The translations under genes and the position numbers were made by a program. 27,638 nucleotides of DNA from a virus. Below are positions 1 to 13,388 of this stretch, in pieces; positions within the stretch are counted from its first letter, which is position 1; the number at the start of each line of letters is the position of its first letter. The notes under the pieces were generated by a model. That model was given only the letters and a program-made list of their open reading frames with translations, searched no databases and was not told where the DNA came from. The stretch lies in the IMG/VR virus record IMGVR_UViG_3300045999_008038, positions 1 through 27,638 of that record; one strand, given 5' to 3'.

Positions 1-3000
1 GGAAAAATGATATTCAAAGTATCATTGAAGAACTTAGAAAATCAGGAGTTGATGTTAATTTTGCTCAACCTCTTGGAGGGACTTTATATGGGATTAAAGG
101 GCAATTAAGTCAAAAACAAAAAAGAGTTTCTAAATCTTTATTAGAAAGCAGAGAAAAGACTATAGATGTAGAAGCTGTAGCAATAGACCCAACATCTCTT
201 GAAACGAATGTAGAAGAAGTTGAACAAATCGGCCAAGAAATTAATAAAGCTTTAGCGCAGGGAATGGAGAGTATTGATGACGCTACAAGGGCTGCGGGGA
301 ATTTAGGTAAGGATTCTATCGACGGTCTAAAAGATTCTATTGATATGCGTTCTCCCCCTAGAATATTCGTCGCTATTGGTAATGCAATTGCGCAAGCATT
401 AGCCCTTGGTATGCGCCAAGGTAGAGATTTAGTGCGAAAAGCTGGGGAATTTCTAGGGCATGAATCTATCCCGGATGATATTGATTCCTCGTTTAGTGAC
501 ATATTAAGTACTACACAAGATGAAGTAGCTAGTAGCCTTGATCAACGAATGGCGAAATTAGCTCAGCAAATTGACAGTGACATGATTTATGGATTAATTG
601 AAAATCAAGAATTAACTCCCATAGAAATAACTTATGATATGACTGCTGAAGAAGCGTCTGAGATTAGAAGAATAAATGAAGAATTAGAGAATCTTATTAC
701 TAATATTAATAAAGCTAACGAAAAAGCTGAGGATTTTCAAAATGCCTTTAGCAAATTTGGTTCTGCTGAAAAACTTATTGATGAACAGTTTGAAAAATCT
801 CAAAATTTAATTGACTATATTGAATATCTAAAACAATTAGATTATTATAATAGACGACTAGAAGCGGGCGAAGTTGGCCCAGATGAAGAAATCCCGACTT
901 TTCCGTCAGAAAGAATACCTGAATTTCCGAGTGCAGGTATTGATGAAGCTCAGAACAGCATCAGTTCTTTTAATGATATTTTAGAAGAAGTAGCCTCGTC
1001 ATTTTTAGCGTTCTTTGCTATTAGTAATCTAATCCCTATTATACAAGACTTAGCTCAACAAGGTATTGAAGCGGCACTGGCTTTTGAGCGTATTGAAATT
1101 CGTATGCAATTAGTTGCAGGCTCCACCGAAGCAGCAATTGATAAAATAAAAGAATATAGAGCTGAAGCTAATCGGTTAGGTGTTGCTGCGACTGAGGCTA
1201 TTGATAGTTACACAAATTATGCTGCTGCGGTTAAAGACACACCGTTAGAGTCTAGTACTGATACTATTGTCAAAGGCTTATTGACCATACAATCGGTACT
1301 AAGCACTAACGCTGAAACATCTGACATGATGAACATGGCTATCGAGCAAATGGCATCAAAAGGTGTCGTATCGATGGAAGAATTAAGACGACAGTTGGGC
1401 GATCACCTACCAGGTGCGTTTCAGATCGCAGCCCGTTCTATGGGATTAACTGCCGCTGAGATGGATCGATTAGTATCCAGTGGTAAATTAATGTCTGAAG
1501 AATTTTTACCTAAATTTTTCCAACAAATATCACTAGAATTTGAACCTGGTGTAGAAGATGCTATTAATTCCAATATCGCCGCCGTTAATAGACTAAATAA
1601 CGCTACTGAATTGCTATTAATCAATTTTGGTAAGATAGCAATGCCGATTTATATTAATGGTGTCAAAGGAATGACTCGCGCTATTAATTTTCTTAATAAA
1701 GGATTTGAATATACGGGTGCTGTAGCAGCGGTTATTCTTGTAGAATTATTCAGACGAATTACAGCACTGAAGAATTTATTAGCCACATTAGTTAAAATAT
1801 TTGGAGTACAAGGATTAAATTTAATAGGTGCCGCTCTAAAAATTCTAAATAGTGGGTTAGAGTTACTTAAAGCAAATATTCTTAAATTAATAGCTGCAAT
1901 AGCAACTCTAGCTGCTAGATTTGTAGTATTTCATATTGCTATTAGTGCAGCTCAAGTAGGCTTACAAACTTTTAGTGATATGTCTGGCGCATCTGGTAAG
2001 AGAGTAGATGCGGGGGCGAAACAAATAGCTAAAATGAGAGAGGAATTACAAGGACTGGGTAAAGATGCTACAGACGCCGCTCATCGTCTAGAAGATGTAC
2101 AATTAAGAGGGGCAGCGGGTAATGTATTTCAAGAGGGGCCGCTCGGTTTTTTGAATCGGAAGGCCGAGGATATGTCAAAATGGTTTGAAAAACGTGGTAT
2201 CCCAACAACAGATAATTATTTGTTAAATAATATTATTCGCTTCTTTCAGAATAAGCAGATTGAAGATGAACTTAAAGCAGGTTTACAACAATTAGAAAAT
2301 GTAGGGGAATTAGAGATTTTAACTAATGTTGTATTAGATGACAATCAAGCCATATCTGAATTTAAGAGAATAGAGAACGCAATAACAAAAAACCGCCAAC
2401 GACAGCAATTAACTAGAATTGTAGACCCCGGTAACATTGAGTTATTAAAAGCGCTTGCGAAAGAAGAACAAGATTTATATAAAGAGCGAGAAAACGCGGC
2501 ATCCGATCTCGTCAAAGCTCAGCGTCTAATAAGCGATGAACTAAATCGTTATAAACAAGATTTAGACGACGTTGAAGGCAAATATGAAAGAGGGGAAATG
2601 GATTATGACACCTACGTTACTAGAACAACTGATTTAGATAATGCTATATCCAATACAGAGGCTTTACAAAGACAGCTTAATGAAGCTTTAGGAACTGGTA
2701 TTGAAAGATTTGAACAAATGGCGATGGCAGCTAGAATGGTTAAAGCTGCTACAGAAGATGCCGCGTTTGCTGCTGAAAAAACGGCGAATATTCGTAGAGC
2801 CGAATTATCTAAATTAGATACAGGACTCAATACAGGATTCATAACAGGGGGTTCTTCAGTAATTGAACAACAATCTATATTACAACAAGTAGAAGCAAAT
2901 AACGCGGCATTAAACTTATTGAGAGAAAATCTAACTAACCCTGAGATAATAAATGCACTACGCTCTCTAGAGCAAAGTATTCCTGATTTTGAAAAATTAG

Positions 3001-6000
3001 GCCCAGAAGGGTTATCTATTTTAAGAGAGCAGCTAGAAGAGCAAGGGGATGTTAGATTAACCTTAGCTCTAGATTACTTAATTGATACTGAACAGATTGA
3101 AGGTGAAGTAGCGCAGTTAAAAGCTAATTTAGAGCAAGCAGCAGCACAACTTAGAGGCGAAATTAATCGCTTAAGTCGTGAACTCGAAGATATGTTTATT
3201 GAACTCGCTAATCAATCTGAAGATATAGCCCTACGATTCAAAGAAGTTCAAAATGATCGAATTATTAACCAAGCGGGGAATAAAGTTAAACGATGGATGA
3301 GCCAACTTAGAGGTGATCATTTCAGTGGGATGATGAACCTACTAGAAGAATTTATTAATATTCTTGGGGAACAGCTAAGACAAACGGCTGACTTCATCAG
3401 ACAAAAAATGGACTTAACAAATCAGCTATTTCAAGCACTACGACAAGCTGAAATGTTCCAATTAAGTATTCCTCAAGTTGATGGGAGCGGTAACGGCGCA
3501 ACAATGGGTTCTGGTACGCTAGTAGGTATTACTGGGAATACGGGGATCGGTAGTGGGGCACATTTAGATATAAGAAAGCGCGAAGGAGATAGACGTTTAA
3601 CAGATGAAGAATTAAATAGATTTCAGGTAAATGGAAGACCTTTAACATCTTACCAAATCACGAGTGAATATGGGCCTAGGAGAGCGCCTGTCCCTGGAGC
3701 CAGTACAATGCATAAAGGGGTGGATTTTGGTATTGGAGTCGGTGGTAGAATAACAACTACCGTACCAATCCGTTCTGTTAATATTAGAGAGCCTGATGAG
3801 ACGGGTGGTGGCGGTTATGTTACGGATGTTGTATTTGAAGATGGACTAGAAGTATCGTTACTTCACTTAGATCCAAGTACGCTATCTGCTGGTGTAGGCA
3901 CGGGCGGTCGAGCGCAAGTACCAAACTTGGGTAATAATGGTGGCACACCATCAGGGAGAGCATCAAGAGTTAGTCGTAATTTACCATCCTTTTTAGAACA
4001 ATTTGAAGGATTTCATTCAACTCCTTATTGGGATGAACAACAATGGTCTTGGGGGTTTGGTACTAGGGCACCAGGAAGAGGAGGAAATATAACTAGAGAT
4101 GCCGCTACAACTGAAATGATGAATTATCTTTCAGGAGTGGAGCAAACTATAGCTAGGCTTGTTGAAGTACCGTTAAATCAAAATCAATTTGATGCGTTAG
4201 CATCATTAATCTACAATATTGGTAGTGGAGCATTTGAAGGTAGTACCGTAAGACGGAGATTAAATCAAGGTGATTATTCAGGTGCCGCAGATGCTTTTAA
4301 GATGTGGAATAGGGGGAATAATGGAGTTCTTCAAGGATTAGTTACTAGAAGACAAGCGGAAGCGGATTTATTTAATCGACCTAGTTCTTCTATCACATCT
4401 TCTGCGATGAGTGCAAGGGAAGGTAGCCAAAGTCAATATGGGCTATTCATGGAAGAAGGATATGCTCTAACTCAACGTCGTGACTATCAATCCGCTCTTA
4501 TTAATTTTAGACGCGCCCTACAAGAACGTCCTAATGACCGTTATGCTACCCAAGCAATTAATAATGTAACAGGATATATTAATCGTTCTCGGCCTACAAC
4601 TACATCTGCGATGAGTGCTAGAGAAGGAAGTCAAAGACATATTTCAACTGAGGTTGCGACACGACAAGCACTCCCATCTATGCCTCAAGTTGATATATCT
4701 CAACAGGCAGGCCAATCTCAGATATTAGGACAACAAACAAATCAGTATAGACAAGAGTTGATTAATAATCATAATCGGCAAATGAATTTACTGAATGAGA
4801 TGCAACGGATGGCAGATCAAAACACGCAAAATGCCATTCAAGCGCTCTTAGACAGGTCTGATACTCAAGTTATAACAGAACGAAGAAACTTAGAAGATCA
4901 AAGATTGCAAGCTGATCGAGAAAGACGAGATATTCAATATGAAAGCATCCCTCAGTTTCAACGAACTCCAGAGATTGAAAGAGCGCGTCAAGAAGAATTA
5001 ATTAGGCGCGACTTTGACGACAGGCGCATTACATTACAGAGACAAAGAGAGGACGCTTTAAGATCGCAAGAAGTTGGGCAAGAAGCATTAAATAATCTCG
5101 TCCCTATGTTGGAATCTTTTGGTGTGGCTAGTCCCGAAGATATCCAAAGATTCAGAAGTAATTTCCAAGAAACCGCAATAACCTCAGGTGAAGTAATAAA
5201 AGTCCTTGAGCAGATGATGACTGACTTGCCTGAAGCGCAAGCTCAATCACTGCAACGAATCGCGGCTGAATACACTAGAGAACTTGCAAATACTCAATTT
5301 CAAAATGCTTCGGACATTACAGAAGCTACAGCCGCCTTGCTTGAGTCTCAAGCGAACAGATTAGATCAAACAGGTGATCCTCAAGGAGCGGCACAATTAC
5401 GAGCTGGGGCGGAACAAGCAAGAATCATTCGTGAAAATCAAGCACTTGTGCGTGAACTTGAGCAACGAATGGAAATTGATCCTACTAATGCTACTCAATA
5501 TCAAGAAAGAATAAATTTAGCTAATCAAAAAATTGCAGTTTCATTAGAAACATTAAATGAAAATTTACGAAGAACTTCTGAAGAAATTGCTCAATATAAT
5601 TATACTGCAAGAGCAGAATCTTCAAGAGAGTTAAGATCGGCGCAAATTCAACAATTACGATTCCAAGGTAGTCCGGCTGAAGCTCTTTTGATGGAACAAG
5701 CGGATGCCTTACAAGCTCAATTAGATCAATTCGCAAGTCGTAGAATTGAAATAGAATTTGATGCTAAATTAGACGATCCTACTAGAGCGCAACTTGAGGC
5801 TGAATTAGCTGAAATCGAAGCTACCACACTTGAAATAACAGCGGAATTAAATTTACGCGCTCAAATACAACTTCAACTTGACGCCGAAAAATTAGTGTTG
5901 GACGCAGAAGTTGCTAACCTTGAAGCTCTAATCCCTAACCTTCTTGCAAGTTTTGAACAAGGTTTAGCTCGTGATATGCAAGATAGATTAGATGGGTTAA

Positions 6001-7709
6001 GAATTGAATTAGAACTTAGACAACGAATTGTAGAAATTAATAAGCCCGAAAATCAATTAACAAGTGAACAAAAAACGTATCTCACACAACTAGCCGAAGA
6101 AGAAGCGACCCTAAAGCGGCAGAACTTAGAGCGTCAACGCGCCTTGAATATTCGTCGTGATCAACTTGATTTAGAGCGTAATATAATTACAAACCCAGGT
6201 GGCCCCCAAGCCCTTACACAGGTACAAGATGCATACTTATCTATGTATGACATCACCCCGACATGGGCAACGCAACAAGAGCGTCTACCTATGATGTTGG
6301 AGTTACAAAATCTTGACTACCAGCAACAACTAATCGATTTAGAAGAACTTCGTAATAGTGGTAAGCTAACAGAAGAAGCGTTCGCGAAAGCCAAAGAAGT
6401 ACTTGTTGAAATAAATGAAATAAAATTAGACCAAATAAGACTTGAAGCGAGTAGTATTCCTGAATTGGTTAAAACGATTAAAGGGCCAATGGAGGGCTTA
6501 TTTAAGGATATTTTAGATCCTAATAGCACTAAAACCTTTGGCGAAGCCTTCAGTGATATGATCAATGGCATGTTAGCTAACTTAGCAACATTGGCCGCAA
6601 ATTGGCTCACTAACTCTTTATTTTCATCTTTCCTTGGCGGCGGAGCGGGAAGTCCTGGTAAAGAGGGTGGATTATTCCAAACCTTGTTTGGCCCCCCACC
6701 TGGTAGTGAAGAAGAAGCTTTATCTTTAGGTGGACAACAAGCTGCAATGATGCTGTCAATGGGCGCACAAGAGGCGGCGATGATTCTAGTTCAAGCAGGT
6801 ATCCAAGTTGCCCAGTCACTTCAAAGTTCGGCCCTCTTATCTAGCAGGTTAGGTACTGGTGGTTACAATTGGGGCGGTATGTCTGGTGTGACTAGACCAA
6901 CTGGATGGCTTGAGAATATGTCTTTCCTCGGTGGAAATGGAAGCACCGCCGCAAGTGCTATAAACCGAGGATTTCCTGATCTTAACAATCTGAACTTTAC
7001 GTTTGCTAGAGGGGCGCAAACTATTGGTAATAGTATTGTTCAAAGTTCCAATGTTGGCGCAAACTCCTTTGGCGGGGGCATTGCGAGTGCTTTACAAGGT
7101 GCTAGTAGAGGTCTTGGTAGCGGAAGTTTGTTTGGGAGCAGTAGAACCAAAGGTAAATCAGGTGGTGGATTCTTCGGGAGTGGAGGCATGGGAGGTGGCG
7201 ACTTCCTAGGAAGCTTGCTCCAGATTGGTCTAGGGTTCCTAGGCTTTAAGGATGGAGGGGTAGTCCCTGAGATCCCAGGATATATGCTAGGAGGTTCTAT
7301 CAAACCTATCGCTAGTCATAGTAAGCTCCGAGCAGGGAATGATGTTATCGCTAAAGCCCTGCGCAAAGAAGGCCCGCGATCTGTATTAAGTACCTTGACA
7401 CCCGGAGAATGGGTTTTGAATAAGAATCAGCAGAAGATTGCTATGGCTAATGGTGTAACTCCAGATATCTTGGGATTCGCATCAGGAGGTATCGTCCCTG
7501 GTGGCCCCACAATCCGACCTGTCGTTAATACATCTAGCGTAGGAGGGTCTACTAACGTATCTGTACCTGTAACTATTAACTCAAGCGGTGGCGATAACAG
7601 CCAAGACCCACAAGCTGCGAAAGCCTTGGCTGATAAAGTCCGTGGGGCAGTCTATGAGGTGATTAACAAAGAGTCCAGATTCGGTGGTCTGCTAGGGGGC
7701 GGACGGTAA
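1..7709 (+). CDS. Tape measure protein with embedded M23-like, GH24 lysozyme and TPR modules (5' partial)
   Basis: The frame is open from base 3, so the gene starts upstream of the window and the ATG at 264 is internal; at least 2568 residues are present. The tape measure sets siphophage tail length and is ejected at infection. Numbering from base 3: the tape-measure core domain is at about 360-510, followed by hydrophobic segments at 573-653. An M23-like module is at 1171-1295 (HKGVD at 1237-1241, LLHLD near 1288). A GH24 lysozyme is at 1326-1460, with FEG Glu1335, Asp1344 and a WSWGFGT loop. A TPR-like motif lies at 1479-1530. Long Gln/Glu/Arg-rich coiled coil fills about 1567-2160. The Gly-rich C-terminus has the LTPGEWVLNK and ASGGIVPGG motifs usual in tape measures. 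By the lambda ratio (roughly 0.15 nm per residue) the tail could exceed 300 nm, although enzymatic insertions reduce this. The gene is convergent with the next one (8-nt gap). Confidence 0.95.
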   Translation, partial: KNDIQSIIEELRKSGVDVNFAQPLGGTLYGIKGQLSQKQKRVSKSLLESREKTIDVEAVAIDPTSLETNVEEVEQIGQEINKALAQGMESIDDATRAAGNLGKDSIDGLKDSIDMRSPPRIFVAIGNAIAQALALGMRQGRDLVRKAGEFLGHESIPDDIDSSFSDILSTTQDEVASSLDQRMAKLAQQIDSDMIYGLIENQELTPIEITYDMTAEEASEIRRINEELENLITNINKANEKAEDFQNAFSKFGSAEKLIDEQFEKSQNLIDYIEYLKQLDYYNRRLEAGEVGPDEEIPTFPSERIPEFPSAGIDEAQNSISSFNDILEEVASSFLAFFAISNLIPIIQDLAQQGIEAALAFERIEIRMQLVAGSTEAAIDKIKEYRAEANRLGVAATEAIDSYTNYAAAVKDTPLESSTDTIVKGLLTIQSVLSTNAETSDMMNMAIEQMASKGVVSMEELRRQLGDHLPGAFQIAARSMGLTAAEMDRLVSSGKLMSEEFLPKFFQQISLEFEPGVEDAINSNIAAVNRLNNATELLLINFGKIAMPIYINGVKGMTRAINFLNKGFEYTGAVAAVILVELFRRITALKNLLATLVKIFGVQGLNLIGAALKILNSGLELLKANILKLIAAIATLAARFVVFHIAISAAQVGLQTFSDMSGASGKRVDAGAKQIAKMREELQGLGKDATDAAHRLEDVQLRGAAGNVFQEGPLGFLNRKAEDMSKWFEKRGIPTTDNYLLNNIIRFFQNKQIEDELKAGLQQLENVGELEILTNVVLDDNQAISEFKRIENAITKNRQRQQLTRIVDPGNIELLKALAKEEQDLYKERENAASDLVKAQRLISDELNRYKQDLDDVEGKYERGEMDYDTYVTRTTDLDNAISNTEALQRQLNEALGTGIERFEQMAMAARMVKAATEDAAFAAEKTANIRRAELSKLDTGLNTGFITGGSSVIEQQSILQQVEANNAALNLLRENLTNPEIINALRSLEQSIPDFEKLGPEGLSILREQLEEQGDVRLTLALDYLIDTEQIEGEVAQLKANLEQAAAQLRGEINRLSRELEDMFIELANQSEDIALRFKEVQNDRIINQAGNKVKRWMSQLRGDHFSGMMNLLEEFINILGEQLRQTADFIRQKMDLTNQLFQALRQAEMFQLSIPQVDGSGNGATMGSGTLVGITGNTGIGSGAHLDIRKREGDRRLTDEELNRFQVNGRPLTSYQITSEYGPRRAPVPGASTMHKGVDFGIGVGGRITTTVPIRSVNIREPDETGGGGYVTDVVFEDGLEVSLLHLDPSTLSAGVGTGGRAQVPNLGNNGGTPSGRASRVSRNLPSFLEQFEGFHSTPYWDEQQWSWGFGTRAPGRGGNITRDAATTEMMNYLSGVEQTIARLVEVPLNQNQFDALASLIYNIGSGAFEGSTVRRRLNQGDYSGAADAFKMWNRGNNGVLQGLVTRRQAEADLFNRPSSSITSSAMSAREGSQSQYGLFMEEGYALTQRRDYQSALINFRRALQERPNDRYATQAINNVTGYINRSRPTTTSAMSAREGSQRHISTEVATRQALPSMPQVDISQQAGQSQILGQQTNQYRQELINNHNRQMNLLNEMQRMADQNTQNAIQALLDRSDTQVITERRNLEDQRLQADRERRDIQYESIPQFQRTPEIERARQEELIRRDFDDRRITLQRQREDALRSQEVGQEALNNLVPMLESFGVASPEDIQRFRSNFQETAITSGEVIKVLEQMMTDLPEAQAQSLQRIAAEYTRELANTQFQNASDITEATAALLESQANRLDQTGDPQGAAQLRAGAEQARIIRENQALVRELEQRMEIDPTNATQYQERINLANQKIAVSLETLNENLRRTSEEIAQYNYTARAESSRELRSAQIQQLRFQGSPAEALLMEQADALQAQLDQFASRRIEIEFDAKLDDPTRAQLEAELAEIEATTLEITAELNLRAQIQLQLDAEKLVLDAEVANLEALIPNLLASFEQGLARDMQDRLDGLRIELELRQRIVEINKPENQLTSEQKTYLTQLAEEEATLKRQNLERQRALNIRRDQLDLERNIITNPGGPQALTQVQDAYLSMYDITPTWATQQERLPMMLELQNLDYQQQLIDLEELRNSGKLTEEAFAKAKEVLVEINEIKLDQIRLEASSIPELVKTIKGPMEGLFKDILDPNSTKTFGEAFSDMINGMLANLATLAANWLTNSLFSSFLGGGAGSPGKEGGLFQTLFGPPPGSEEEALSLGGQQAAMMLSMGAQEAAMILVQAGIQVAQSLQSSALLSSRLGTGGYNWGGMSGVTRPTGWLENMSFLGGNGSTAASAINRGFPDLNNLNFTFARGAQTIGNSIVQSSNVGANSFGGGIASALQGASRGLGSGSLFGSSRTKGKSGGGFFGSGGMGGGDFLGSLLQIGLGFLGFKDGGVVPEIPGYMLGGSIKPIASHSKLRAGNDVIAKALRKEGPRSVLSTLTPGEWVLNKNQQKIAMANGVTPDILGFASGGIVPGGPTIRPVVNTSSVGGSTNVSVPVTINSSGGDNSQDPQAAKALADKVRGAVYEVINKESRFGGLLGGGR
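4401..4618 (+). repeat. Direct repeat flanking an in-frame TPR cassette in the tape measure gene
   Basis: The 14-mer TCTGCGATGAGTGC occurs at 4401-4414 and again at 4605-4618. Both copies are translated in the same frame within SAMSAREGSQ. The copies are 204 bp (68 codons) apart and bracket a single TPR-like helical hairpin (YALTQRRDYQSALINFRRAL). The similarity continues past the exact 14-mer at protein level. Confidence 0.8.
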
Positions 7710-7717
7710 GAAGTATT

Positions 7718-8350
7718 TTACCAACCTCTATCCCTAAATGGAGTAGTTAGTGCTTTTTCAACTGACCAACCGTATGAGTTAATACGATTTCTCAGGCTAA
7801 ATCTGTTTACCCCAAGTTCTCTAGCCCACTGAGTTATACTCTGAGATTTACCGTTATATTCAAGAATTACGGTAGTACTTCTATTGTTGAATTGATCAGA
7901 CCATGTAACCCATCGGCAGTTATCCTTACAATAGTTACCATCGGTTTCTATTCTATCTAGCGTGTGTGCATCTGTTGGAGGGTGTCCCATGTCTTCTAAA
8001 AACACGAGAAAGTCATCCCAAGCTGGATCTACAGTAATACCTTTTCCTCCATACCATTGATAATCTTCACTATTTGGATTATTACAGCGCTTACGCATAC
8101 CTAGCCAAGTTTGGTATACCTTGGTTCCATGCATACCATGCTTAATTTTACCCACAGTATTTTTACACCCGCAAGATTTTATTCGACCTTTATTTAGCAC
8201 TGAAGATTGTACCTTAATCTTCTTACCACATTCACATTTACACCACCATAACCAATTACTATTTTTATCTTTTTCAGCTTTTTCAATTACTTCTAGCGAG
8301 TTAACTACTAACCCAGTCAAATCTAACGCCTTACCCATAAGTACATCCAT
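7718..8350 (-). CDS. HNH endonuclease, phage homing-type, with C-terminal helix-turn-helix
   Basis: A 210-residue protein. The N-terminal part (about 10-55) has LTG..V followed by CKCECG...SCGC, a likely zinc ribbon. The centre has the pattern W..MRKRCNNP, YGGKGI and LDRIETDGNYCKDNCRWVT, diagnostic of the large phage HNH family often annotated as homing-endonuclease-like. The C-terminal part (ITQWARELGVN...GWSVEKALTTP) resembles the NUMOD-type DNA-binding helix found in such enzymes. The likely role is a site-specific nickase or double-strand nuclease that promotes its own spread. It lies head-to-head with the tape measure stop and diverges from the 8437 operon. AGGAG sits only one base from the first ATG, so the in-frame ATG at 8338 (residue 5) may be used instead. 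Family call is firm; the cleavage target is unknown. Confidence 0.85.
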   Translation of the reverse strand: MDVLMGKALDLTGLVVNSLEVIEKAEKDKNSNWLWWCKCECGKKIKVQSSVLNKGRIKSCGCKNTVGKIKHGMHGTKVYQTWLGMRKRCNNPNSEDYQWYGGKGITVDPAWDDFLVFLEDMGHPPTDAHTLDRIETDGNYCKDNCRWVTWSDQFNNRSTTVILEYNGKSQSITQWARELGVNRFSLRNRINSYGWSVEKALTTPFRDRGW

Positions 8351-9321: not shown

Positions 9322-9331
9322 GAGGTATTAA

Positions 9332-10471
9332 GTGTCTGTTTATTACAACGAAAATAATCCGAAGAAGGCTGAATGGTTGCGACAACTAATTAAGTTAGAC
9401 GTTATAGCCCCAGGTGACGTAGATGAAAGAAGTATCAAAGAGGTATCCCCCGAAGATGTTCGACACTACACCCAATGTCATTGGTTTGCAGGAATTGGAG
9501 TCTGGAGTTACGCGCTCAGACTTGCAGGATGGGACGACAGTAGACCCGTATGGACAGGAAGTTGTCCTTGTCAGTCCTTTTCAAGAGCAGGAAAACAACT
9601 CGGAACATCCGACCCTCGACATCTCTGGCCTGATTGGTTTAGATTCATCCAAGAGTGCCGACCTCCAGTTATTTTTGGAGAACAGGTTGAAGCAGCGATT
9701 AGAAAAGGCTGGCTCGACCTTGTACAAGATGACTTGGAAACAGAAGACTACACCTTTGGGAAGATCGTACTGCCAGCTTGTAGCATCGGCGCACCGCATC
9801 TCAGGCAACGAATATGGTTCATGGCCCACACCAGTAGCTCAACCAGCAAACAGTACACCCGAAAACTTTCTACGGAGAAAGATGGAGTCGAACGCAAGAT
9901 CGGACGGCCCACGAATGGGAGTTGTGATTTCAGATATACAGATGATGGTCATGATGGTGAAAGCTCCTTACCCAACTCCTCAAGCATCGGACATAACGGG
10001 TGGCGGTCAAGCCAAGCAAGCGATGATGTCTTCTCTGGGAATCAAGAGAGAAAGTGGGAACACAGTAGGGAAGAAACTACGGGATTATTGCATGTTGGTG
10101 GAATCTCCCTTAGAGATGGCAGGATGGAACGTGGATTCTGGGGAAACACTGAATGGCTACCCTTCAGAGACGGAAAACAAAGGATCGTTAAATCCAGCCT
10201 TGGCGCGATGGTTGATGACGTTACCGGAGGAATTCGACAAGGCCGCGATCTTGGCGAACAGGAAGTTGAAAGGAAAATAGTCTACCCACTGGTAAACAAA
10301 TCGCAAGACTCATCAAAATACACCATCGAGGAAATTGACTTCGATAACACGCCAGAAGCGAGGACGATGAGAATCGAAGGTTATGGTGATGCGATTGTTG
10401 CAGAACTAGCAGCCGAAATTATCGGGACAGGCATGGAGTGGCTATCCAGCAACCCTCCAAACGCTATGTAA
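9332..10471 (+). CDS. C5-cytosine DNA methyltransferase (phage Dcm-like)
   Basis: A 379-residue protein that transfers a methyl group from SAM to C5 of cytosine in DNA. Visible motifs: I FAGIG (52-56); IV GSCPCQSFSRAG with catalytic Cys80; VI as EQV (117-119, commonly ENV); VIII QRIWF (159-163). The C-terminal motif is GYGDAIVAELAAEII (about 350-364), preceded by EWLPFRDGK (274-282), which this phage subfamily carries before motif X. The N-terminus (YYNENNPKKAEWLRQLI...IAPGDVDERSI) also matches the subfamily. The start is GTG, with GAGGT at 9322-9326. The region between VIII and X is variable and would hold target recognition; it coincides with a second gene in the +1 frame. The 3' end overlaps the convergent K-like gene by 30 nt. 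The likely role is protection from host restriction. No cognate nuclease is recognised. Confidence 0.9.
   Translation: MSVYYNENNPKKAEWLRQLIKLDVIAPGDVDERSIKEVSPEDVRHYTQCHWFAGIGVWSYALRLAGWDDSRPVWTGSCPCQSFSRAGKQLGTSDPRHLWPDWFRFIQECRPPVIFGEQVEAAIRKGWLDLVQDDLETEDYTFGKIVLPACSIGAPHLRQRIWFMAHTSSSTSKQYTRKLSTEKDGVERKIGRPTNGSCDFRYTDDGHDGESSLPNSSSIGHNGWRSSQASDDVFSGNQERKWEHSREETTGLLHVGGISLRDGRMERGFWGNTEWLPFRDGKQRIVKSSLGAMVDDVTGGIRQGRDLGEQEVERKIVYPLVNKSQDSSKYTIEEIDFDNTPEARTMRIEGYGDAIVAELAAEIIGTGMEWLSSNPPNAM
9423..10280 (+). CDS. WPTP-motif protein encoded in the +1 frame inside the methyltransferase gene
   Basis: A 285-residue frame lying entirely inside the methyltransferase gene, shifted by +1. It is not random-looking: it has GSTLYKMTWK (97-106), TTPLGRSYCQLVASAHR (109-125), SWPTPVAQ (133-140), YPTPQASD (183-190) and a C-terminal LNPALARWLMTLPEEF (256-271). 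I recall the same signatures (TLY.LTWK, TPSGR, WPTP.A, LNP..WLMG.P..W) from phage proteins found beside or inside Dcm genes and often mis-annotated as methyltransferases. AGGTGA (9412-9417) precedes the ATG at 9423; an in-frame ATG at 9456 is the alternative. The function is unknown; co-production suggests it helps or modulates the methyltransferase. I am confident it is real coding sequence, not of its role. Confidence 0.7.
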   Translation: MKEVSKRYPPKMFDTTPNVIGLQELESGVTRSDLQDGTTVDPYGQEVVLVSPFQEQENNSEHPTLDISGLIGLDSSKSADLQLFLENRLKQRLEKAGSTLYKMTWKQKTTPLGRSYCQLVASAHRISGNEYGSWPTPVAQPANSTPENFLRRKMESNARSDGPRMGVVISDIQMMVMMVKAPYPTPQASDITGGGQAKQAMMSSLGIKRESGNTVGKKLRDYCMLVESPLEMAGWNVDSGETLNGYPSETENKGSLNPALARWLMTLPEEFDKAAILANRKLKGK

Positions 10472-11331: not shown

Positions 11332-11360
11332 AGTTGAGCAATCACTCTTGGAGGATTACC

Positions 11361-12155
11361 ATGCGATACGAATATGAGCCTAGCCAGCATGTTGAACTCA
11401 ATATTAATGCTACCTGTGAAGTCGTTATCAATGAAACAAGCGATGTCGCGATTACCGTTGATGTAGAAGGGGATGATGCTGATAAAGTGAAAGTCTCGTA
11501 CAGTTCAGGAACCCTAACTATCAAACATGAGGGAGCAAGTTTCGGTAATATAACCATCGGTAACATCAGTATGAGCGGTGGTACTACTTTTGTTCAAGGT
11601 GTATCAGGCAACTTTTCAGGAACCGTCATTAGCGGCAACAACATCTACATGTCAGGTGGTAGCGGCTCTGTATTTGTCAACGGTAAACGTATTGACTTGG
11701 ATGAATCAGGTAAAGATTACACACCTATTCAGATCAATGTTTATGTACCTAGCCACATCACCGCTAGTCTTGATGCCTCTATTAGCGGTACTGGGTCACT
11801 GCGATCGCAAGTTTACTTGGAAGAAGCCTTTATAAACAGCCAAGGTCACACCAAAGTTGAACTAACCGCTGGTAGTATTCAAGCTCAAGTATCAGGTTCG
11901 GGCGATCTAGATGCTCGTATTCATGATGGCGACTTGAATGTTTCTATCTCAGGTAGCGCTAATGTTCGAGTAGTTGGGGATATGCGATCGGCCAATGTTC
12001 AAGTCTCTGGTTCAGGTGATGTAATTACTCAAGGAATTTGTCACGGTAATTATCACGCTTCTGTGTCGGGTAGTGGGGATATTCGACATGTAGGAACTGT
12101 GAAAGGGCGCGTTCGTGAGTCTGTAGCAGGTATGGGCAGTGTGCGAGTTGGGTAG
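11361..12155 (+). CDS. DUF2807-type (head GIN domain) beta-repeat protein
   Basis: A 264-residue protein starting at MRYEYEP; GGAGGA (11350-11355) is 5 nt upstream, so this start is preferred over the ATG at 11334. The second half is a series of short beta repeats: VSGSGDLDARI, ISGSANVRVVG, VSGSGDVITQG, VSGSGDIRHVG, AGMGSVRVG. This is the pattern of DUF2807 proteins, thought to form a beta-helix or layered sheet and loosely called auto-transporter adhesin-like. The first half is Gly/Ser-rich (MSGGTTFVQGVSGNFSG). There is no signal peptide or membrane segment. It has its own promoter and the opposite strand to the tail genes. It carries the window's only GCGATCGC octamer (11801-11808) and a further GCGATCG nearby, hinting at a different origin. 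The role is unknown: a virion decoration or a host-derived protein. Confidence 0.7.
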   Translation: MRYEYEPSQHVELNINATCEVVINETSDVAITVDVEGDDADKVKVSYSSGTLTIKHEGASFGNITIGNISMSGGTTFVQGVSGNFSGTVISGNNIYMSGGSGSVFVNGKRIDLDESGKDYTPIQINVYVPSHITASLDASISGTGSLRSQVYLEEAFINSQGHTKVELTAGSIQAQVSGSGDLDARIHDGDLNVSISGSANVRVVGDMRSANVQVSGSGDVITQGICHGNYHASVSGSGDIRHVGTVKGRVRESVAGMGSVRVG

Positions 12156-12184
12156 TTGATGACTCACTGTTGAGGGTGTATAAT
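12156..12184 (+). promoter_or_regulatory. Strong sigma70-type promoter for the HNH gene
   Basis: TTGATG (12156-12161), exactly 17 bp, then a perfect TATAAT (12179-12184) begin right after the stop of the DUF2807-type gene. Transcription would start near 12191, after the ATG at 12183, so that ATG cannot be used from this transcript. This leaves a leader of about 95 nt before the Shine-Dalgarno-linked ATG at 12288. Confidence 0.65.
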
Positions 12185-12287
12185 GGATACATGGAGGGTA
12201 AAAGATTGGCTTAATTACCCAGTCCGGTTCCTGAGGCCACCCTCCTATATCACCACTCAGGATGTTGTTTTTCTCAGGAGATTACTT

Positions 12288-13388
12288 ATGCCTAAAAAAT
12301 ATACAACTGAAATTGTCCAGGAAATGTTGGCTCAAGAAGGTTGGGAATTACTAAATGAGTACGTTTCAGGAAAAAATTATTTGTTAATCAAGAATCCTGA
12401 TCGTTTTAACGGGTATTTATGCACCACTATGTTTAAGGACTGGGTAAAAGGAGCTAGACCTGGTTTTATATCATTAGTAGACAAAACGGATTACATAAAA
12501 GAAGTTATTAATGCCGAAGGGTGGGAGGTTGAAGATAATTTTACTTTTCAAAAAGCAAAAGAATACTTTTTTATAAGAAATAAAAAACGTTATAAAGGAG
12601 TCTGGTGTAAAACAACTTGGGATATGTGGAACTCAGGAGTAAAACCAGGCGAAAGAAGTGTAGTAGACAAGACATCCTACGTAAATTTAATAGTAGGTGA
12701 AGAGGGATGGCAATTATCACGACCTATTAATTTTTTAACAGATTTTCTTTATTTGAAGCACATCGTTATTTTGAAAGGTCATGAAGTAAGGTTTCGTTTT
12801 GCATCATGGAAAAAAGGTGCTAGACCTGATATTAGGAGTTTAGTAAAACCTGAAGAATATATAAAAGAACACCTTAAAGATTTAGGGTATGAAATAATTG
12901 AAGAAAATTTCATTTACAAAGGTGATAAAAATAGATTTACAATAAAAAATCTAGAAACAGGTAAAGAATCGAGAATAAATTGGGCACACATTAATTCCGG
13001 CGATCTACCAAATTCACCAAAAGTTTTAATAAGAAGTCGCATCAACCAATATTTAAAAACAGGTGTAGCAGAAAAATATTTTTCTTCTACTTTAGTTTTA
13101 GGGGAAGATTATTGGAAAAAGTTGAAAGAAAAGTTCCCTAGAGTACCTGAGGGGCTAGAAATCGATCATGTCATACCCTGTTCGTTCTGGGGATTTTCTG
13201 AAAGTCAAGTTGTTTTAGCCAATAGCATAGAAAATTTAAGACTTTTACCAAAAAGAGAAAACGTGATAAGAGGTAATAGATTAAAAGCTTCAGAGCTTGA
13301 TGAATACGATCTTTGGGATCTTTACTATCAGGCTGAAAATCCCAAAGGGTTGCCGTTAATTGAAGATCGTTATGACATAGCAAGTTGA
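12288..13388 (+). CDS. HNH endonuclease with four N-terminal W/Y-rich repeats
   Basis: A 366-residue protein starting at MPKKYTTEIV. CAGGAG (12275-12280) precedes this ATG, and the promoter at 12156-12184 lies such that the upstream in-frame ATG would be untranscribed. Four degenerate repeats of about 60 residues (1-62, 63-124, 125-184, 185-243) share Y...V..EGWE...., a strand like YLLIKN or YFFIRN, then F..W..GARP or W.SG.KP, and VDKT.Y. The C-terminal HNH core is LEIDHVIPCSFWG (290-302) followed by NSIENLRLLPKRENVIRGN. The repeats probably bind DNA and the HNH part cuts it, a mobile-nuclease plan. The gene is AT-rich and ends 4 nt from the convergent L-like gene. Nuclease class is sure; repeat function is inferred. 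Confidence 0.85.
   Translation: MPKKYTTEIVQEMLAQEGWELLNEYVSGKNYLLIKNPDRFNGYLCTTMFKDWVKGARPGFISLVDKTDYIKEVINAEGWEVEDNFTFQKAKEYFFIRNKKRYKGVWCKTTWDMWNSGVKPGERSVVDKTSYVNLIVGEEGWQLSRPINFLTDFLYLKHIVILKGHEVRFRFASWKKGARPDIRSLVKPEEYIKEHLKDLGYEIIEENFIYKGDKNRFTIKNLETGKESRINWAHINSGDLPNSPKVLIRSRINQYLKTGVAEKYFSSTLVLGEDYWKKLKEKFPRVPEGLEIDHVIPCSFWGFSESQVVLANSIENLRLLPKRENVIRGNRLKASELDEYDLWDLYYQAENPKGLPLIEDRYDIAS

Follow-up and report, generated by a model that had tools for sequence, protein, structure and literature searches.

The window analysed here, a stretch of 27,638 nucleotides comprising the viral record IMGVR_UViG_3300045999_008038, contains a C5-cytosine DNA methyltransferase gene, here termed alpha, with a second gene, beta, in its +1 frame. 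Both frames are coding, and their overlap is a genuine, ancient arrangement under selection. Judged from sequence comparisons, the locus very probably encodes a two-polypeptide C5-methyltransferase, in which alpha would be the catalytic and beta the specificity subunit; complex formation, activity and specificity are inferred. To our knowledge, long nested genes with an assignable role for both frames are rare. The features of the locus are as follows.

9332–10471, + strand: alpha, C5-cytosine DNA methyltransferase, putative catalytic subunit (GTG start; PF00145, phrog_363, alignment A2)
9412–9417, + strand: Shine-Dalgarno-like AGGTGA, 5 bases upstream of the beta ATG
9423–10280, + strand: beta, +1-frame protein of 285 residues, inferred specificity subunit (ATG start; phrog_1008, relatives, codon-shuffle and codon-position tests)
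9476–9529, + strand: alpha motif I region (CHWFAGIGVWSYALRLAG; invariant A2 columns and by-eye comparison with M.HhaI)
9557–9592, + strand: alpha motif IV with the catalytic Cys (GSCPCQSFSRAG; A2 and M.HhaI alignment)
9648–9812, + strand: beta scaffold, residues 76–130, a helix and two strands around STLYKMTWKQKTTPLGRSYCQLVASAHRIS (conserved in alignments A1/A3; confident part of the model)
9674–9688, + strand: alpha motif VI (FGEQV; Gln replaces Asn family-wide)
9788–9811, + strand: alpha motif VIII (GAPHLRQR; A2; the M.HhaI match stops shortly beyond)
9822–9956, + strand: beta cassette 1 (WPTPVAQPANSTPENFLRRK...), type 9 (cassette HMM, iE 6.6e-13)
9969–10097, + strand: beta cassette 2 (YPTPQASDITGGGQAKQA...KKLRDYCML), type 0 (cassette HMM, iE 1.7e-10)
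10182–10238, + strand: beta motif IX (GSLNPALARWLMTLPEEFD; HMM built from other betas, iE 2.7e-11)
10379–10423, + strand: alpha motif X, diverged (GYGDAIVAELAAEII; A2; family consensus GNAIVPQVAAEFI)

The two proteins and their distribution

Alpha starts with a GTG preceded by GAGG at positions 9322–9325, and its product has 379 residues. It matches phrog_363 (1.8e-68) and PF00145 (1.8e-17), the latter limited to profile positions 66–189 of 324, and the alignment of M.HhaI with profile A2 stops at M.HhaI residue 174, i.e., it runs through motif VIII. Motifs I, IV, VI, VIII and X had been listed for this frame in the initial annotation. Motifs I, IV and VIII stand as described, but motif VI reads EQV rather than ENV, and motif X is diverged, with GDAIVA in the window compared to GNAIVP in relatives. 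A roughly 45-residue insertion precedes it. The catalytic core that defines PF00145 (motifs I, IV with PCQ, VI and VIII) is thus present, motif VI being EQV. Because its motif X is degenerate, the window's own methyltransferase might be impaired.

The beta ATG lies about 30 codons inside alpha. Both open reading frames, the 285-residue length and +1 position of beta, its Shine-Dalgarno-like AGGTGA and the sequence signatures assigned to it (TLYKMTWK, the two (W/Y)PTP motifs WPTP and YPTP, and LNPALARWLMTLPEEF) were confirmed. Beta matches phrog_1008 (2.9e-24), and a Pfam search with it returned no family matches. The structure model of beta alone is poor (pLDDT 61.7), its first ~45 residues being disordered. 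Foldseek and VIA searches with this model gave only weak rows and no methyltransferase among the matches listed, which does not exclude the fold; comparison of the beta profile with PDB sequences gave no match.

The initial annotation pointed to similar WPTP proteins in other phages. With a cut-off of E<0.01, tblastn finds beta relatives in 228 phage records, and +1-frame homologues with conserved residues exist. Close DNA relatives of the window are absent from the phage set. With the window sequence alone, a search of viral contigs gave nothing, whereas alignment A1, built from ten betas, recovered relatives there. The A1 profile gave 80 viral loci (562 relatives found), and an A1-based set from bacterial genomes comprises another 80 (167 relatives found). 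Alpha is present at every beta-bearing locus, and beta lies in the +1 frame relative to alpha at 177 of the 178 loci where both are matched. The sole exception is the single-chain enzyme of Gordonia phage Trax, with both matches in one frame. Among actinophage loci, a +1 open reading frame with a scaffold-like ETWPTSGMTRxG...RT...LPTP overlaps alpha in 60 of 62. Loci with the nested arrangement number in the hundreds, in phages and prophages that range from those of Proteobacteria to actinobacteriophages.

Alpha and beta both seem shortened in Krischvirus LF73P4 and Escherichia phage Alma; in the former, the matches switch frame, resembling a decaying copy. The annotation of Cr-LKS3 holds only beta, under the name 'methyltransferase', and in plasmid records H281–H292 one 'DNA cytosine methyltransferase' is annotated beneath the beta match.

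Several neighbours of the locus were also recorded. Inside the tape measure protein of 2481 residues (264–7709) lies a domain of the phage lysozyme family (PF00959, 3e-34, residues 1246–1366). Beside the tail genes, a TTG-started open reading frame (11334–12155) matches DUF2807, 'putative auto-transporter adhesin' (2.5e-14), an unusual phage cargo. On both sides of the methyltransferase locus there is an HNH-type endonuclease gene (7718–8350, − strand; 12183–13388, + strand), either of which could encode a homing enzyme.

WPTP cassettes and motif IX

The WPTP unit of beta is a module of ~37 residues. Each of 137 betas carries one to four typed units, not counting the 'type 2' cluster, an artefact of an LTWKxxVTPSGRS stretch that was excluded from the cassette counts. 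Thirty recurrent types cover 203 of the 295 modules; of these types, 26 are seen at two or more ordinal positions, and 26 have at least three partner types. Ordered combinations are diverse (85 distinct ones among 106 multi-unit betas), and modules up to 95% identical accompany alpha cores that are only 66% identical. Going by this distribution, cassettes are exchanged between loci. The two window cassettes fell outside the recurrent types in clustering, and both were typed by HMM.

Cassette HMMs built solely from +1-frame betas also match single-chain enzymes, in frame and between motifs VIII and IX: type 14 in L236 (iE 5.9e-14), type 9 in L230 (iE 1.0e-8) and type 0 in L193 (iE 1.2e-7). In a control with five-fold shuffled sequences, the best value was 0.0092. 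The target recognition domain of C5-methyltransferases sits between motifs VIII and IX (PMC3404938). Since in-frame cassettes occupy this normal place, the most economical reading of the WPTP cassette is that of a target recognition module, which remains an inference.

Actinobacteriophage single-chain members contain motifs I–VIII, in some cases PTP units, an EWMMGxPxGW block and then GNGVVPQQ. In their profile, the EWMMG and GN blocks align to M.HhaI 268–308, corresponding to motifs IX and X; at 2.4 bits this match is weak alone, and it is colinear. The AF2 model of one such enzyme, L185 (pLDDT 73.1, pTM 0.75), matches M.HhaI end to end over 253 residues (Z 23.5, rmsd 3.6). A C-terminal beta HMM (LNPAHSRWLMGxPxEW), from which the window beta had been excluded, retrieved 20 entries at iE<=1e-3, namely 19 single-chain enzymes plus the window beta. 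Among the 171 alphas, it had no match at iE<=1. Profile–profile comparison of beta with single-chain enzymes gave E=5.1e-7 and 6.5e-6. Together, these profile matches place motif IX on beta and not on alpha. A target recognition domain and motif IX on the same chain, as in PF00145, are accordingly not found in alpha, whose Pfam match ends at profile position 189.

The window-type layout, with motif IX on beta and motif X on alpha, is one of several. Inventum and Nyxis have both motifs on the second open reading frame, and L186, L192, L197 and L199 have both on alpha, with the cassettes in beta. Nor is the work split between the two frames in the same way everywhere, as some actinophage loci contain cassettes, or ends resembling motif IX, in both of them. 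At L099, L185 and comparable loci of actinophages, cassettes are present in the alpha frame as well as in the overlapping +1 open reading frame, the end of which (LPREFTSWNEVPASW) looks like a second motif IX; such loci may encode enzymes that can use either of two specificity parts.

In the proposed enzyme, AdoMet binding and catalysis would fall to alpha, through motifs I, IV, VI, VIII and the diverged X, without a target recognition domain or motif IX of its own. Beta would be translated from its own ribosome-binding site inside alpha and would consist of a scaffold at the N-terminus, WPTP cassettes of ~37 residues in tandem that act as target recognition domains (two in the window), and motif IX. 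It would thereby complete the small domain, touch the DNA through the cassettes and provide the missing motif. Both chains are predicted to assemble into one active enzyme, assembly and methylation activity being inferred, and the cassettes would determine which sequences are methylated, possibly with one target per cassette. The gene is a phage gene without a recognised cognate restriction enzyme adjacent, so it would be expected to help the phage withstand host restriction; shielding phage DNA in this way is the likely use, although the anti-restriction role is likewise inferred. The suggestion in the initial annotation that beta covers the target-recognition region of the enzyme was correct, and 'partner or modulator' can be sharpened, by inference, to a partner carrying the target-recognition cassettes and motif IX.

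There is no direct evidence for a complex or for activity, and the poor model of beta also weighs against a split enzyme. Beta could instead be a real protein with another job, e.g., a regulator, modulator or anti-restriction factor, and no integral part of the enzyme, a reading that the lack of a Pfam match, a fold match and biochemistry leaves standing. We nevertheless regard it as improbable, as the motif IX missing from alpha is on beta, the cassettes of beta occur in frame in single-chain enzymes, and alpha accompanies beta throughout.

Selection on the two frames

In the shuffle control, synonymous codons were permuted within alpha, keeping its protein sequence and codon usage. The beta HMM score of the window was 242.0 for the real sequence compared to 102.7 ± 12.4 after shuffling (maximum 132.6), and across 41 loci the z-score of beta was at least 10.5 (median 13.3). 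In the reciprocal shuffle, alpha scored 366 compared to 134 ± 18. The actinophage +1 open reading frames behaved similarly, with z of at least 6.1 and a median of 10.3 (30 loci). A beta ATG is present at 169 of 171 loci, compared to 57% in codon-shuffled controls. Shine-Dalgarno matches of at least 4 bases precede beta at 88% of loci (37% in controls), and matches of at least 5 bases at 49% (8% in controls).

Codon positions were compared in nine close pairs, the alphas of which are 80–97.5% identical. Upstream of the beta start, alpha positions 1/2/3 change at 0.019/0.015/0.154, the pattern of an ordinary gene. Between motif VIII and the CRDGK block, the values are 0.136/0.043/0.048; the free position here is alpha position 1, which is beta position 3, and residues change at 0.154 in alpha and 0.061 in beta. 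Selection thus tracks the beta frame between motif VIII and the C-terminal block of alpha. Both frames are constrained on the approach to motif VIII and again in the C-terminal block. In 68 more distant pairs, the relaxation ahead of beta and the joint constraint recur, with the middle region being less clear (0.420/0.296/0.351). The first ~45 residues of beta show little constraint of their own and evolve nearly as if alpha alone mattered. Conservation of beta forced by alpha is ruled out by the codon-position test for most of beta and holds only for about these first 45 residues. Both the shuffling and the codon-position tests show alpha synonymous sites to be constrained by beta, and together with the homologues they bear out the earlier view of an old, selected arrangement.

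These data also bear on how the +1 frame is expressed. A programmed +1 frameshift past motif VIII could fuse alpha motifs I–VIII to the cassettes and motif IX without any separate beta, and in Inventum and Nyxis, where cassettes, IX and X are all in the +1 frame, such a shift would yield a complete enzyme. However, constraint on the +1 frame reaches well upstream of motif VIII, where alpha position 3 changes at 0.257 within the overlap compared to 0.512 outside it, the beta ATG and Shine-Dalgarno sequence are conserved, and the shifted product in proteobacterial-type loci would be without motif X. The constraint upstream of motif VIII and the conserved beta start favour internal initiation over frameshifting, and a frameshift-only product is unlikely, slightly more so than a beta with another job. 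Long spurious open reading frames are possible in high-GC relatives, yet codon shuffling and the codon-position test rule out that chance or the composition of alpha keeps the +1 frame open, as it was open in 0 of 5000 synonymous shuffles of the window alpha (mean 7.2 stops), all 41 loci tested exceeded their shuffled controls as given above, and beta is open and conserved in distantly related loci.

Within the proposed two-polypeptide enzyme, alpha between motifs VIII and X evolves like filler beneath the beta frame, while the cassettes sit on beta. Specificity might be kept out of frame: the variable region of alpha would be a mere carrier, and the +1 frame an array of interchangeable recognition cassettes shuffled by recombination between phages, so that the methylation pattern could be altered with the catalytic protein untouched. 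We consider the chances of this extension to be even.

Annotation mostly lists one of the two proteins, so an orphan methyltransferase of a phage may look dead when only the annotated gene is expressed. With the cassette array, a recognition code for 5-methylcytosine specificity can be put to the test, and the locus is a tractable system for studying how selection is divided between two frames along one gene.

Comparison with known methyltransferases

The closest precedent for alpha/beta is M.EcoHK31I, in which the small open reading frame is nested in the large one in a different frame, as is the case at 177 of 178 loci here. This two-polypeptide enzyme (YGGCCR) has motifs I–VIII and X on the large polypeptide and motif IX solely on the small one, and its target recognition domain is predicted in the large subunit (PMC3404938). 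The distribution of motifs is the same in alpha and beta, with the window motif X being diverged. Unlike in M.EcoHK31I, the recognition cassettes are apparently on beta and in tandem, and the locus is a phage locus with no restriction enzyme recognised adjacent rather than a restriction-modification system. In the split enzyme M.AquI (CYCGRG), motifs I–VIII are on one subunit and the distal variable region and motif IX on the other (PMC3404938). The window shares this division but has motif X on alpha, whereas M.AquI has it together with IX on the small subunit; Inventum and Nyxis, with IX and X on the second open reading frame, are nearer to the M.AquI layout.

The multispecific C5-methyltransferases of Bacillus phages place their tandem domains between motifs VIII and IX. 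Several tandem target-recognising domains are described for M.H2I and its relatives, as far as the secondary source relates the original work (Lange 1991, Wilke 1988, via PMC8936443). The enzyme proposed here would likewise be a phage enzyme with several recognition modules in tandem, but with the modules encoded in a different frame, on a second polypeptide, and not on a single chain; some single-chain actinophage relatives have the modules in frame. By profile, beta belongs to the same family as PHROG 1008 and the 'Mte8-like protein' of K1 phages, and both open reading frames are annotated in the record of phage K1ind2. These annotations give no role, and the label 'DNA methyltransferase' fails to separate beta from the catalytic subunit. 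In the open literature searched, no description was found of the out-of-frame arrangement in phages, the cassette array, its shuffling or its breadth. Naturally split C5-methyltransferases are already known, a precedent absent from the initial annotation, and what is new is the breadth of the arrangement and its out-of-frame, shuffled cassettes.
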